The position numbers and the translations under genes were made by a program. The notes under the pieces are model-generated. The model made no database searches, was not told the DNA's origin, and saw only the letters and a program-made list of their open reading frames with translations. Shown piece by piece: positions 3,262 to 8,847 of a stretch of 43,708 nt of DNA. Origin of the DNA: Anaerolineales bacterium (GTDB lineage Bacteria; Chloroflexota; Anaerolineae; Anaerolineales; UBA6663); assembly GCA_020845955.1 (NCBI GenBank), contig JADLEU010000261.1:1-43708 (forward strand), in the 5' to 3' direction. Each line of letters begins with the position of its first letter. Within the stretch, counting starts at the first letter, position 1.

Positions 3262-4872
3262 ATGCGCAAAGCTGGAGTGGCGATTGCCGTTGTCCTCGGA
3301 ATTGTCCTGGCTGCCGCCTTGGCCGTGCCCCAAACAGCCAGCGCGGGTATCGTGGATTACGTCATTGGTGACACAGGTGTTGTCATCACGCTGGTGACGC
3401 CCGACTCGCGCCAGCTTTGCTCAAGCGGCATTGATATTTTCGGCGCCAAGGTCGTTCCGCGCACAATACCGGTTCGCCTGCTTGGCTTTGTGAATGTGCA
3501 GTACGTCCTGGCCGACGGCAGCTTGCAGACGATCCCCGGCGGCTACTATGCCATCGATCAGAGCAGAAATTTCACCCTTCAGATCACCTACCCGCCGTTA
3601 GATCAGTGGCCGGTGCAGAGCGGCGGAATGGCTGAGATTCACGTCGATGTGGAGGTGGACGTCTACGTCAACGGCGTGTACGAGGCCACGATTGGCACGG
3701 CCCAGTCGTGGACCGTGCACTGCCAGGTGCAGCCGACGCCGACGCCCACCAACACCCCGGTAACACCGGTCGTGCCCAGCGCCACCCCGACCAACACCTC
3801 GGTGCCTCCCAGCGCGACGCCCACCAACACCCCGGTAACGCCGGTCGTGCCCAGCGCCACGCCGACCAACACCCCGGTAACGCCGGTCGTGCCCAGCGCC
3901 ACGCCCACGAATACACCGGAGACGCCAACGGCACCCAGCGCCACACCCACCAACACCCCGGTAACACCGGTCGTGCCCAGCGCCACGCCCACGAATACAC
4001 CGGAGACGCCAACGGCACCCAGCGCCACGCCGAGCAACACCCCGGTAACGCCGGTCGTGCCCAGCGCCACGCCCACGAATACGCCGGAGACGCCAACGGC
4101 ACCCAGCGCCACGCCGAGCAACACCCCGGTAACGCCGGTCGTGCCCAGCGCCACGCCCACGAATACACCGGAGACGCCGGCGCCGCCCACTGGCGAACCG
4201 CCGACCAGTACGCCCGAGACACCGGGAGTGCCCAGCGCCACACCCACGAATCCGCCGGAGACGCCGGCGCCGCCTACTGGCGAACCGCCGACCGCGGTGC
4301 CTCCCACGGATGTGCCGCCCAGCGGCCCGCCGGTGGACACGCCGCCGGCGAACGTCTGCGCCGAAGGCACCCCGGCCACGGTGACGATGAGTGTCACTCC
4401 GCAGCAGGTTCTGCCGGGTCAGGTAGTCGAGTTTGTCGTCACTGTCCACAACCCCCACGGGGTTACACTCTCGGGCGTCAAAGTGACCAACTCGCTTTCG
4501 GTCTTTGTCGAGTACCTTAATGCCGTAGCCACGTTTGGACAGCCGATGTACGATGCGGCCGCCCGAACGGTAACGCTTGAGATCGGTGACATGGCCATCG
4601 GCCAGAGCGTGGTCCTAAACATCTCGGGCCGGGTAGCCACGGGCGCCCAGGCGCCGAACGGAGTCAGCAATTCGGCCCAGATCTGCCAGCCGGGTGGCTG
4701 CTGCGCCACGGCCACCAGTACTGCCCAGATCATGCCGGGCGGCATCCCGGTGACCGGCGCCGGGCCGAGCCTGCGCGACATTGTGCAGATGGTCGTAGCC
4801 TTGGCTTCCGGCACCGCCACGGCCTTAAGCGGCGGATGGTTGGTCTTCCGCGATGAGCGCCGCTCGCGCTGA
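3262..4872 (+). CDS. Repeat-stalk surface protein with IPVTG sorting signal
   Basis: This 536-residue protein begins with a Sec signal peptide (cleavage likely after TASA, about residue 28). An N-terminal beta-rich domain covers roughly residues 29-155. A Thr/Pro/Ala/Ser stalk of near-identical 14-residue units built on PSATPTNTP spans about residues 158-365. Residues 370-485 resemble a DUF11/CARDB-type Ig domain (VTMSVTPQQVLPGQVVEFVV). The end matches a sortase substrate: IPVTG at 495-499, a moderately hydrophobic stretch, and the basic tail RDERRSR. A sortase gene follows 16 nt downstream. The protein is most likely displayed on the cell surface, and its ligand is unknown. GAAAGG lies about 9 nt before the ATG. 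Confidence 0.85.
   Translation: MRKAGVAIAVVLGIVLAAALAVPQTASAGIVDYVIGDTGVVITLVTPDSRQLCSSGIDIFGAKVVPRTIPVRLLGFVNVQYVLADGSLQTIPGGYYAIDQSRNFTLQITYPPLDQWPVQSGGMAEIHVDVEVDVYVNGVYEATIGTAQSWTVHCQVQPTPTPTNTPVTPVVPSATPTNTSVPPSATPTNTPVTPVVPSATPTNTPVTPVVPSATPTNTPETPTAPSATPTNTPVTPVVPSATPTNTPETPTAPSATPSNTPVTPVVPSATPTNTPETPTAPSATPSNTPVTPVVPSATPTNTPETPAPPTGEPPTSTPETPGVPSATPTNPPETPAPPTGEPPTAVPPTDVPPSGPPVDTPPANVCAEGTPATVTMSVTPQQVLPGQVVEFVVTVHNPHGVTLSGVKVTNSLSVFVEYLNAVATFGQPMYDAAARTVTLEIGDMAIGQSVVLNISGRVATGAQAPNGVSNSAQICQPGGCCATATSTAQIMPGGIPVTGAGPSLRDIVQMVVALASGTATALSGGWLVFRDERRSR
3730..4310 (+). repeat. In-frame 42/84-nt tandem repeats encoding the Thr/Pro stalk
   Basis: Copies of a 42-nt unit (14 codons, around PSATPTNTP) alternate between a VTPVV and an ETPTA version, giving an 84-nt higher-order period. 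Copies near 3985-4180 are almost identical at DNA level, so copy number could change by slippage or recombination without breaking the frame. Confidence 0.9.
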
Positions 4873-4888
4873 GTGATCGACCAGTAAG

Positions 4889-5644
4889 GTGAGCGGGTTG
4901 TGGGCTGGGCGGTTGTCTAAGCTGGCCCTGGCTGCGGTGGCCATCGGGCTGCTGTGGGCCGGCGCCGCCGCGGCTCGCGCGGCCTGGCCGGCCTCGGCGC
5001 CGGCCAGCCGGGCCGGCGAGCCGCCGGCCGCCGAGACGGCCGCCCCGGCGCGGGTTGAGGCAACCACCCCGCCTGGGCGGGTCGCCGCGGCGCCGGCGTC
5101 GGGCGAGGCGACCGCCCTGCCGGAGGCAATCGTGCTCGCTTCGCCTGCCCCCGCTGTGATGGATGAGCCGCGTGACGAGGCCGGGCTCGCGCCTGAGCCG
5201 GCCGAACCGCCGCGCCTGCTGATCCCGGACCTGGACGTCAATGCACCGGTTATCAGTATTCCGGTCAAGGATGGCAACTGGGATCTGTCCGAACTCAACG
5301 CCGAGATTGGCTGGCTAAGCACGACCGGGAGCCAGCCGGGCGATGACCTGGCCATGGCCTTTGTCGGCCACTTCACCCTGGCCGGGGCTAAACCGGGCCC
5401 GCTGGCCGGCATCTGGGACACGCGCCCAGGTGATGAGATCATCTACCGCGCCCGAGGCACCGATTACGTATATGCCATCGAGGGCCGCCAGACCGTCGGC
5501 CCCAACGACGTCGAGCACCTCTACGTCAACGATGGCGAGCGCCTGATCCTCGTGACGTGCACCAATTGGGATTTCCTCAACTGGGAGTATTCGGACCGCC
5601 TGGTCGTGCAGGCCGCGCTGGTGCGGCAGACGCCCTCGCCGTAG
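4889..5644 (+). CDS. Sortase (LPXTG-type transpeptidase)
   Basis: This 251-residue membrane-anchored enzyme has an N-terminal hydrophobic segment (about residues 10-33) and an Ala/Pro-rich linker to about residue 107. The sortase barrel runs from about residue 109 (LLIPDLDVNAPV). The catalytic residues are in place: His161 in FVGHFTLAG, Cys224 in LILVTC, and Arg237 in YSDRLVV. It should cleave an LPXTG-like motif and attach the protein to an envelope nucleophile. The IPVTG protein directly upstream is the obvious substrate. The GTG start at 4889 was chosen because it begins the hydrophobic segment; the ribosome-binding site is weak. The sortase class (D/E/F-like) is not decided. Confidence 0.9.
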   Translation: MSGLWAGRLSKLALAAVAIGLLWAGAAAARAAWPASAPASRAGEPPAAETAAPARVEATTPPGRVAAAPASGEATALPEAIVLASPAPAVMDEPRDEAGLAPEPAEPPRLLIPDLDVNAPVISIPVKDGNWDLSELNAEIGWLSTTGSQPGDDLAMAFVGHFTLAGAKPGPLAGIWDTRPGDEIIYRARGTDYVYAIEGRQTVGPNDVEHLYVNDGERLILVTCTNWDFLNWEYSDRLVVQAALVRQTPSP

Positions 5645-5775: not shown

Positions 5776-6676
5776 GGCCGGCCTGAACCGGGGCTGGATC
5801 CTCTACGCCAAACTGGTCGCCACGGTCATCGCCTGGGGCGGCTCGTTCATCGCCACCAAGTTGGCGGTGCGCGAAGCCGTGCCCCTCACCGTCGTCTGGT
5901 TGCGCTTTGCGTTTGGGCTGCTGGTGCTCGGCGCGCTGCTGGCCGCCCGCCGGCAGATGACGCTGGCGCCGCCGCGCGAGCTGGCTTACTTTGCCCTGCT
6001 TGGTTTCCTGGGCATTACGCTGCACCAGTGGCTGCAGTCCAACGGCCTGCTGACCGCCCAGGCCAGCACCTCGGCCTGGATCATGGCCACTACGCCCATC
6101 TTCATCGCGCTGCTTGGCTGGCTGGTCCTCCAGGAGGGCCTGCGCCTGATCCAGGTGGCCGGCATCGTCCTGGCCACCATTGGCGTGCTGCTGGTGGTCA
6201 GCCGCGGCGATTTGGCCGCGCTCACCGCGGGGCGCGCCGAAGCGGCCGGCGACCTGCTCATCCTGGCCAGCGCGCCGAACTGGGCGGTGTTCTCAGTGCT
6301 CTCGCGGCGGGGCCTGCGCCGCTTCCCCGCCGCGCTGCTGCTCTTCTATGCCATGGCGCTGGGCTGGCTGTTCACCACCGGCCTCTTTCTGGCCGGGCCG
6401 GGCCTGGCCGACGCCTCCCGGCTCAGCGCCACCGGCTGGCTGGCCGTGCTCTTCCTGGGACCGTTGTGCTCCGGCCTGGCCTACAGCTGGTACTTTGACG
6501 CGCTGGAGCGCCTGCCGGCCTCACGGGTGGGCGCGTTCATCTACTTCGAACCACTGGTCACGGCCGGTGTTGCAGCCGCGCTGCTGGGCGAAGCCCTGAC
6601 CTGGGCCGCGCTCGCGGGCGGCGCTGTGATCCTGCTCGGCGTCTGGCTTGTACAGCAGCAGGCAGCCAGAGCCTAG
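5774..6676 (+). CDS. EamA/DMT-family transporter
   Basis: This 300-residue integral membrane protein has about ten hydrophobic helices arranged as two homologous EamA halves. The first starts near LVATVIAWGGSFIATKLAV. The second, about residues 155-295, ends in a repeat of the same type (FIYFEPLVTAGVAAALLGE). Members of this superfamily export or import small metabolites, often amino acids or nucleotide-sugar-like compounds, but the substrate cannot be read here. The ATG at 5774 gives a normal N-terminus; an in-frame TTG at 5720 would begin inside the hairpin. Its stop overlaps that of the convergent gene in a shared CTAG (6673-6676). Confidence 0.85.
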   Translation: MAGLNRGWILYAKLVATVIAWGGSFIATKLAVREAVPLTVVWLRFAFGLLVLGALLAARRQMTLAPPRELAYFALLGFLGITLHQWLQSNGLLTAQASTSAWIMATTPIFIALLGWLVLQEGLRLIQVAGIVLATIGVLLVVSRGDLAALTAGRAEAAGDLLILASAPNWAVFSVLSRRGLRRFPAALLLFYAMALGWLFTTGLFLAGPGLADASRLSATGWLAVLFLGPLCSGLAYSWYFDALERLPASRVGAFIYFEPLVTAGVAAALLGEALTWAALAGGAVILLGVWLVQQQAARA

Positions 6677-8847
6677 CGGCTGAGTCCCTCGTCGGCTGCC
6701 GGCTGGCTGGCTGGTTTGAGCCGGGCGTCTCCCAACTCGCGCCGGCCCTCGAGCCGCAGCTCGCCGAACGCCGCCCGCGCCGCCCGGCCGTCGGCCGGCC
6801 GGTCGTTGGGGTCGAGCGCCAACAGCCGCAGCAAGCACAGTTCCAGCCCCAGCGGGATTTCAGGCCAGCGCAGCCGCGGGCTTTGCGGCTGGCTGTAGAG
6901 CTGCAGGGTCAGCCGCAGCTCCTCGGTCTCGGCGGCGAACGGGTGCGCGCCCAGGAACAGCTCGTAGAGCATGACGCCCAGCGCGTACACGTCGGAGGCG
7001 GGCAGGGCCGGCTGCCCGCGCAGTTGCTCCGGCGCGTGGTAGGCGGTGGCCGTGGAGCCCGCCGCCGGCGGAAAGAGCGGTGTCCGCGTCACGCGCGCCA
7101 GGCTGCCGGCCATTACCACATTCTCGGGGTGAAGATCGCCATGCGTCAGGCCGTGGGCGTGGATCGCCGCCACGGCCTCGCACAACTGCTCGCCTACGCG
7201 CCGTTGGTCCAGCCAGGCCGGTTGGCGGGCGCGCCACTCGCGCAGCGAGATACCGGCTGGCTCGTCACAGATCAATGCCACCCACTCATCGGCCTCGATG
7301 ATGGCCTGACCGGCGATCAAGCTCGGATGAGACACGCCCTGCCAGGCGCGCAACTCGCCCACAAACTGCTGCCGCGCCGCGCCGCCGCGGCGGCCGGCTA
7401 CCACTCGCACCCATAGCGGCGCCTGCGCTCCTAGCTTGCGTCCCAAGTAAACGGCGCCCAGCTCATCGACAAACAGCAGCGCCTCGAGCTGCAGCTGCCC
7501 GGCGATGGTGGCGGCCGCCAGCCGCAGATGGGCGGGGCCGGCTAGCGCGGCCAGCGCCTGCTGCCGGCTGCGGACGATGTGCAGCCCCTTGTCGGCGCCT
7601 GACTGCTCCAGCGCGCGCCGCACGGGCAGGGTCGGGGCCAGCACCGCCAGCGTGGAGCGTCCTAAGGCCCCGTGCTGGCGCGCCGTGTCGATCAGGCCAT
7701 TGATGCCGATAGGGTCGGCCGCGGCCAGCAGGGTCAGGTCCAGCAGCAGCCGTCCGCCTGGCGCGGCGGCCAGCATGGCGCCCAGCCGTTCCTGGGCCTC
7801 GGCCACCGTGCTGGCGTTGAGCTGCCCCGCCAGCGCCAGGGTCCAGATCCCGTTCTGCCGATCTTCCAACGTCTCCAGGCCCGGCGGCTGTCCCAGGAAC
7901 AGCTCCAGTCCCTCGGTGGCCACCATGACCGCGGTGTCCGGCGAAATCTCGTTGACGCGGGCGTACTCGCGCGCGGCCGTCGCGATCGCGTAGATCTGCT
8001 CGTCTGAGTGGGTCGGGTCGTGGTGGAACGTAATCAGGCGCTTGGCGCGCGCGCGCTCGGCGATATCCACGCCGATGATGGCCGAGCTGTGGCCCCAGTC
8101 GGCCTTGCTCAGAAAGACGTCGCGCAGCGAATACTGCGCGTCGAACACCAGCGCGTCGGCCCCGGCGAAAAAGGCCGTGTAACGGCGCAGGTGCGCTTCA
8201 GACAGCGCTTTGTATTCGCCGTCGCTGGCGAACACAAATACGCTCTCGCCGTCGTCGAAGCGATAGGCATAGGCGGTGCCCGGGTGGTAGAGCGACAGGT
8301 TCGAGACTACCGTCCGGCCGATGGTTACCGTCTCGCCCTCGCGCAGTTGGATGAACTCTTTATCGGCCGGCATGGCGTTGGGCGGGATGGGGAAATAGGT
8401 CGGCGCGAGCTGCTGGTGCTCGAGATAGGTCTGAGGGTGGTTGTTGACGGCGTAGAAGATCAAGCGGTTGCCCGGCACGTAAGCCGGCGTAAAGAAAGGA
8501 TAGCCCTGCAGGTGATCCCAATGGGCATGGGTCAAGAAGATGTGGGCGACGCCCTGGCCCCGCCCAAACTCGCGCGCCATCAGACTCAAGCCCAAGGCGC
8601 GCATGCCCGAGCCGCAGTCGATGATGATCGTCTCCTCGCCGGTGTCGACTTCGACGCAGGTGGTATTGCCGCCGACCACCGAGCGCACGCTGGGCGGCAG
8701 GCCGGCGAGGTAGGCCTGTACCTCGGCCGGGTTCGATAGGTCGACCCCGCCAGCGCCCGAGAGGGCCTGAAACAGCCGGTCATTGAGCTGTTCGTTGGAC
8801 AGCGGGGTGGGGATCGACCCACGTACGCCCCAAAATTTCACACGCAC
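6673..8847 (-). CDS. MBL-fold hydrolase / STAS-like / kinase-like fusion protein
   Basis: This 724-residue protein has three modules. Residues 1-320 are a metallo-beta-lactamase fold with GSIPTPL, the metal motif THAHWDH (His107, His109, Asp111, His112) and later histidines (YHPGTAY, GHSSAI, FHHDPTHSD). That end resembles RNase Z-like or cyclic-nucleotide phosphodiesterase-type MBL proteins. Residues about 330-445 resemble a STAS domain (LAGQLNASTVAEA, LLLDLTLL). Residues about 450-700 form a protein-kinase-like domain. It keeps HGDLHPEN (Asp571, Asn576) and a YHAPEQL/SDVYALG region, but lacks a recognisable DFG and the usual VAIK lysine (WVRVV instead). It may therefore be a pseudokinase or an atypical kinase. 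The start is GTG with no strong ribosome-binding site. The protein is cytoplasmic with no signal peptide, and its role is probably regulatory. Confidence 0.8.
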   Translation of the reverse strand: MRVKFWGVRGSIPTPLSNEQLNDRLFQALSGAGGVDLSNPAEVQAYLAGLPPSVRSVVGGNTTCVEVDTGEETIIIDCGSGMRALGLSLMAREFGRGQGVAHIFLTHAHWDHLQGYPFFTPAYVPGNRLIFYAVNNHPQTYLEHQQLAPTYFPIPPNAMPADKEFIQLREGETVTIGRTVVSNLSLYHPGTAYAYRFDDGESVFVFASDGEYKALSEAHLRRYTAFFAGADALVFDAQYSLRDVFLSKADWGHSSAIIGVDIAERARAKRLITFHHDPTHSDEQIYAIATAAREYARVNEISPDTAVMVATEGLELFLGQPPGLETLEDRQNGIWTLALAGQLNASTVAEAQERLGAMLAAAPGGRLLLDLTLLAAADPIGINGLIDTARQHGALGRSTLAVLAPTLPVRRALEQSGADKGLHIVRSRQQALAALAGPAHLRLAAATIAGQLQLEALLFVDELGAVYLGRKLGAQAPLWVRVVAGRRGGAARQQFVGELRAWQGVSHPSLIAGQAIIEADEWVALICDEPAGISLREWRARQPAWLDQRRVGEQLCEAVAAIHAHGLTHGDLHPENVVMAGSLARVTRTPLFPPAAGSTATAYHAPEQLRGQPALPASDVYALGVMLYELFLGAHPFAAETEELRLTLQLYSQPQSPRLRWPEIPLGLELCLLRLLALDPNDRPADGRAARAAFGELRLEGRRELGDARLKPASQPAADEGLSR

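Follow-up and report, generated by a model that had tools for sequence, protein, structure and literature searches.

Two adjacent genes in the 43,708-nucleotide stretch of Anaerolineales DNA analysed here (the window, C261 among the 431 contigs of a 6.06 Mb assembly) encode a stalked surface protein that ends in an IPVTG sorting signal and a sortase, and it is quite likely that they form a dedicated sortase-substrate module in which the substrate is exported by Sec, cleaved at IPVT-G and transferred to peptidoglycan. The reading is supported by the adjacency of the genes, the repetition of the pair in relatives, the existence of fusions, the tracking of motif with enzyme, the rarity of such tails, the presence of only two sortases in the genome, the predicted fold of the enzyme and the peptidoglycan machinery of the genome. 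The features of the two genes are as follows:

3262–3345, forward strand: Sec signal peptide of the substrate, MRKAGVAIAVVLGIVLAAALAVPQTASA then G (read from the translation)
3346–3726, forward strand: N-terminal domain of the mature substrate (translation; no Pfam match)
3730–4341, forward strand: Thr/Pro stalk of the substrate (translation and repeat analysis)
4381–4680, forward strand: DUF11 (Ig-like, CLIPPER) domain of the substrate, residues 374–473 (PF01345, E 5.4e-9)
4744–4758, forward strand: IPVTG sorting motif of the substrate (sequence; same motif in fusions L076–L078)
4777–4848, forward strand: hydrophobic segment of the sorting signal (sequence)
4849–4869, forward strand: basic cytoplasmic tail RDERRSR of the substrate (sequence)
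4889–5644, forward strand: sortase gene, start GTG 4889 or TTG 4898 (PF04203, 65 bits)
4901–4981, forward strand: N-terminal signal-anchor helix of the sortase (helix 5–31, AlphaFold2 model)
5213–5635, forward strand: catalytic sortase domain, residues 109–249 (PF04203, alignment, AlphaFold2 model, Foldseek)
5369–5371, 5558–5560 and 5597–5599, forward strand: His161, Cys224 and Arg237 of the sortase (alignment)

The substrate open reading frame was confirmed at bp 3262–4872 on the forward strand (536 amino acids), and its translation bears out the signal peptide, the Thr/Pro stalk and the IPVTG-hydrophobic-basic C-terminus of the original prediction, whose Ig-like domain is the DUF11 domain. 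The stalk is encoded by a tandem repeat array (bp 3808–4270) with a 42/84 bp unit. A codon-by-codon check gives IPVTGAGPSLRDIVQMVVALASGTATALSGGWLVFRDERRSR as the C-terminal tail; in it the motif, a transmembrane helix and a basic C-terminus (IPVTG-...-DIVQMVVALASGTATALSGGWLVF-RDERRSR) follow one another in the order that defines an LPXTG-type sorting signal, and the curated LPXTG anchor models of NCBIfam gave no match to the substrate at E-values up to 1. Some DUF11 domains carry an intramolecular isopeptide bond (PMC12617251). The first strand of the domain has Met in the substrate (TVTMSVTP) where relatives have Lys (LVKRIS, IIKQVN), so this bond is probably absent here. The combination of stalk and DUF11 domain suggests an adhesin-type or spacer role.

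The sortase gene begins 16 bp past the substrate's stop codon on the same strand; the TTG at 4898, which has AAGG 8 nt upstream, is as good a start codon as the GTG at 4889 or a better one, and may be the true start. The 251-amino-acid protein consists of a helix, a long linker and the sortase domain, and it matches PF04203 (peptidase C60) with 65.1 bits against a curated cut-off of 26.6. The full His-Cys-Arg triad anticipated for this gene is present as H161, C224 and R237, all three of which are invariant in a 16-sequence alignment. In the AlphaFold2 model the domain has the sortase beta-barrel fold (pLDDT mostly above 90) with one N-terminal helix ahead of it, and the top Foldseek matches of the model are sortases, SrtE (E 4e-10) and SrtA first. 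The protein is a member of the sortase superfamily that passes no class cut-off: the best class-level sequence match, class F (NF033748), scores 37.7 bits, far under its cut-off of 166, classes C, D and E (NF033745, NF033746 and NF033747) score 21 to 24 bits against cut-offs of 160–165, and class GN (TIGR03784) scores 17.3 bits against an equivalog cut-off of 158. Elsewhere in the window, a 724-amino-acid protein encoded on the reverse strand (bp 6676–8847) combines a metallo-beta-lactamase-fold domain with a STAS-like region and a protein kinase domain.

The genomes closest to that of the window belong to the Chloroflexota, class Anaerolineae. Its description as a non-Gram-positive lineage holds taxonomically, but almost the whole order has sortase-domain genes (38 of 41 genomes). 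A profile search with PF04203 found exactly two sortases in the window's genome, that of the window and one at locus L001; genes of the L001 type, about 300–400 amino acids long, are shared by almost all members of the order examined, and L001 itself scores nearest to classes E and D, yet below their cut-offs. The acceptor, which had been called not obvious, is likely to be peptidoglycan, because profile searches of the genome found eight matches to PBP transpeptidase domains in seven open reading frames and no Omp85 (which is one marker only); these results fit a monoderm cell that makes peptidoglycan. Another member of the phylum, Litorilinea aerophila, is reported to have a layer resembling peptidoglycan, together with an intact pathway for its synthesis (PMC13319060). 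In the proposed mechanism the substrate would be exported by Sec, and its C-terminal helix would retain it in the membrane until Cys224 of the neighbouring membrane-anchored sortase attacks the Thr-Gly bond and cleaves IPVT|G; the stalk protein would then pass from the Cys-thioester to the amine of a peptidoglycan precursor (lipid II), and the DUF11/Thr-Pro stalk would project from the wall. Here we infer that the cut falls between Thr and Gly, that lipid II is the acceptor and that the enzyme is restricted to one substrate.

Homologs of the window sortase (E up to 1e-12) are present in at least 44 of 249 Anaerolineae genomes; the best ten candidates per genome were scored in this class-wide search with a strict E-value, and absences from it are weak. 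Seventy-one distinct relative sortases, that of the window included, were classed by what precedes them. In eight, again including the window's, the preceding gene product ends in [LI]PxTG-helix-basic; at the other loci (L059, L060, L080, L081, L090, L106 and L115) a DUF11 or stalk protein gene precedes the homologous sortase gene, and the tails read LPETGIGPGPREIV, LPATGVGPGPREIV, LPDTGIPPAP, LPATGIPPTR, IPTTGGGPGPGDIA, LPETGGFSG and LPETGVGVT, each followed by a helix. The adjacent gene with a sorting signal, by which a dedicated sortase system is recognized, is therefore conserved in relatives. Seven more sortases have [LI]PxTG-helix-loop-helix-sortase within one chain; in the sister-clade fusions L076–L078 and L054/L079, a single polypeptide of 1,900–2,200 amino acids contains IPVTG or IPNTG-helix-loop-helix-sortase. 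That relatives have the same enzyme and substrate fused supports the pairing (a "Rosetta stone" argument), and the original prediction of a dedicated pair in adjacent genes thus gains from both its repetition and its fusion. No adjacent motif was found for 27 of the 71, in part because some of the loci are short; linker matches in L073–L075 were counted as motif-free, and L077 and L078, which have a second IPLTG match, were classed by hand. As read from their loci, the two sortases nearest the window's by sequence are without a canonical partner: upstream of one (L058) lies the gene for a 1,545-amino-acid protein ending in VPDAINGPG-helix-basic, and upstream of the other (L102/L129) only a C25-like peptidase gene.

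Several further arrangements were seen among the relatives. In many of them a C25 (gingipain-type) peptidase gene immediately precedes the substrate-sortase pair or the sortase (L059:655-3489, L060, L082:2496-5195, L088, L110, L129:7842-10658 and L109; confirmed by Pfam in L059 and L082, and recognized by similar C-terminal sequence in the others). There is no C25 gene near the window pair, and one lies elsewhere in its genome. Clusters L053 (G014:C134) and L054 (G039:C221) each contain six or seven consecutive relative-sortase genes, and one sortase in these arrays is fused to a protein of ~2,200 amino acids with many SdrD_B-type repeats. The N-terminus of the L059:4380-5066 sortase contains LSAC, which resembles a lipobox, so this enzyme may be a lipoprotein instead of being anchored by a helix.

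In the sortase tree, the window protein falls in a 22-row clade (support 96/92) together with the IPVTG and IPNTG fusions; addition of L090 (IPTTG) gives a weakly supported 23-row group (84/65). The first motif residue is Ile in seven of seven motifs within this group and Leu in 37 of 37 outside it, counts which are not independent events since the change to Ile was probably a single evolutionary switch. The Ile in place of Leu to which attention had been drawn is thus a meaningful feature, specific to the window's sortase clade, and the pattern is as expected if the enzymes of that clade read Ile.

The motif is uninformative as a bare pentapeptide: [LIM]PVTG has 20 matches in the six frames of the genome, fewer than the 39 of a reversed control pattern, and such counts were rejected as evidence. 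Context is more telling. The window's IPVTG is the only one of the 20 matches that lies at a C-terminus with a hydrophobic segment and a basic tail, and tail profiles built from the window and related tails find only the site of the window substrate genome-wide (its own score being given by construction, as the profiles include it). Among 304 open reading frames of the longer loci, mostly those of relatives, a motif-helix tail occurs only beside sortases. A second IPVTG-helix protein is nevertheless encoded in the same genome (L135:5474-6601, reverse strand), with its motif in mid-protein: IPVTGG is followed by a helix, a basic loop, a second helix and then an unassigned domain at the C-terminus. 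This layout is that of the IPVTG-helix-helix-sortase fusions, but with no detectable sortase. A search of 60 genomes gave no convincing relative of it and one marginal match.

A direct read of 1.59 Mb (26%) of the genome for Leu-type tails found at least two convincing ones, LPGTGGLGRTELILIGLAG... and LPDTGFADEAGVPGLVLAG..., together with a third, weaker one; the two convincing tails are at L183 (LPGTGGLGRTELILIGLAGLCCCGG...) and L221 (LPDTGFADEAGVPGLVLAGLGLIVVVILARRLRMAIR). The proposed check of the genome for other sortases and [LI]PxTG tails thus yielded one other sortase and at least these two tails, and of the "one-substrate sortase" of the original prediction the dedicated pair stands, and the exclusivity is qualified by the Leu-type tails and by the L135 protein. 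The Leu-type tails also provide more than one candidate substrate for an enzyme with a general, housekeeping-like role, which would act on every LPxTG-type protein of the genome and lie next to one of them incidentally. We consider such a role for the window sortase improbable: L001, of a type present in nearly every genome of the order, is a better candidate for it, the pair recurs across families and has fused forms, and the Ile signature sets the motifs of the window clade apart from the Leu tails. The Ile/Leu split fits two separate sortases, since a second such enzyme is encoded in the genome alongside two or more Leu-type tails. The latter presumably serve L001, and the simplest division of labour would have L001 act on LPxTG and the window sortase on IPVTG, although L001 could act on IPVTG as well.

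Eighteen of the 71 sortases are the C-terminal domains of large proteins (open reading frames of up to about 4,000 amino acids) in which LPxTGF(A/S/P)xG or a close variant lies about 25 residues before the sortase domain with no helix between; these form a single clade (100/99), and the 14 that were aligned show no variation in the L, P, T or G of the motif. The model of one motif-sortase fragment has a mean pLDDT of 87 with the 14-sequence alignment (the five models differ, from 64 to 87), with values of 72 over residues 11–20 and 93 over residues 21–30, which span the motif and what follows it. The best Foldseek matches of these relatives are class C structures. Class C pilus sortases have a lid with a DP-aromatic motif in their N-terminal region. 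Alignments of the fragment model to several of them start at model residues 9–14, in the lid-bearing region, and continue through the domain; LPATG occupies residues 16–20, just after the start of the alignments, where class C enzymes have the DP-aromatic lid. This placement, together with the pLDDT values, gives a lead that the motif may sit lid-like near the protein's own active site, and in contrast to class C enzymes these proteins carry a cargo of up to 4,000 amino acids. It is possible, though we would put it somewhat short of an even chance, that the Anaerolineae have single-use, self-anchoring surface proteins each of them a single chain of up to about 4,000 amino acids that unites the cargo, its LPxTG motif and the sortase cutting that motif. 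The motif would be held lid-like in the protein's own active-site cleft until a peptidoglycan amine takes over, and the window pair would then be the separated, multiple-turnover form.

The likeness of these relatives to class C, and the fact that pilus sortases likewise adjoin their substrate genes, raise the question of whether the window enzyme is a class C-like pilin polymerase that links copies of its substrate into a fibre. This seems slightly less probable again than a general housekeeping role, as the first structural matches of the window sortase model are SrtE and SrtA, its class C score is far under the cut-off, and there is a single substrate gene in whose product Pfam and NCBIfam searches found no pilin-family domain.

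In another 11 of the 71 (L061, L082, L085, L086, L088, L089, L103, L110, L112, L116 and L117), the preceding gene product lacks a helix and has LP[EGR]TGRR-COOH as its end. Its stop codon and the start codon of the sortase gene share bases (ATGA) in all 11; frameshift read-through from the LPxTGRR stop into the sortase was considered less likely, as this overlap would better fit translational coupling. Several of the linked sortases begin with a twin-arginine-like RRRFLGVLAAA signal. These helix-less substrates would be hard to retain before transfer, which could point to an enzyme that chiefly hydrolyses the tail and releases the stalk protein unanchored, but for the window this is very unlikely, since the retention signal of its substrate is complete and peptidoglycan precursors should be there to act as the nucleophile.

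A different C-terminal tag without a following helix, [YF]LP[LFIV][VIAT]x[RKH]-COOH, ends many long proteins in the window's genome (G000; loci L137–L147, L149–L151, L179, L182, L193, L194, L206, L207, L209, L218 and L225). Examples are ...VYLPLATR, LYLPLVTR and VYLPFVAR, and several of the tagged proteins have features of secreted proteins. A strict DNA pattern of the tag matches the genome 15 times, mostly at plausible gene ends, and its reversed control 4 times; the tag may be an undescribed sorting tag. Several of the C25 peptidases end similarly (YLPLTRH, YLPILRR, YLPLVVK and FLPVILR).

Dedicated pairs are already known from the class GN sortases of Gram-negative bacteria, which act with a single adjacent LPXTG target (PMC3237569). 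The dedicated module proposed for the window resembles them in that, outside the classical Gram-positives, a sortase is devoted to a single target encoded next to it, but it falls far below the class GN cut-off, its motif is IPVTG and its lineage looks monoderm. With the Sortase A/LPXTG housekeeping system of the Firmicutes it has the triad, the fold and the motif-helix-basic sorting signal in common; it differs in being paired with one neighbour, in having Ile for Leu and in the presence of a separate, near-universal sortase in the genome. An older review mentions one Chloroflexus protein with a sortase-like region, its function unevidenced (PMC1586193), and in the open-access papers covered by our search for Chloroflexi/Chloroflexota sortases, C-terminal sortase fusions and self-processing sortases the present family is undescribed. 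The window pair, which is real and probably functional, is ordinary in principle and new in its lineage, motif and relatives, and the fused and helix-less variants outside the window are the striking part.

Sortase biology rests mostly on the Firmicutes and Actinobacteria, and the family described here belongs to a deep-branching, mostly uncultured phylum in which the genome itself allows a substrate to be assigned to its enzyme, as the two are encoded side by side or within one protein. The family offers a natural Leu-to-Ile specificity switch for study, and the fusions, if they work as proposed, would be self-anchoring transpeptidases of use in protein engineering. For the organisms themselves, the module points to one way, open to test, in which Chloroflexota filaments may decorate their layered envelopes.
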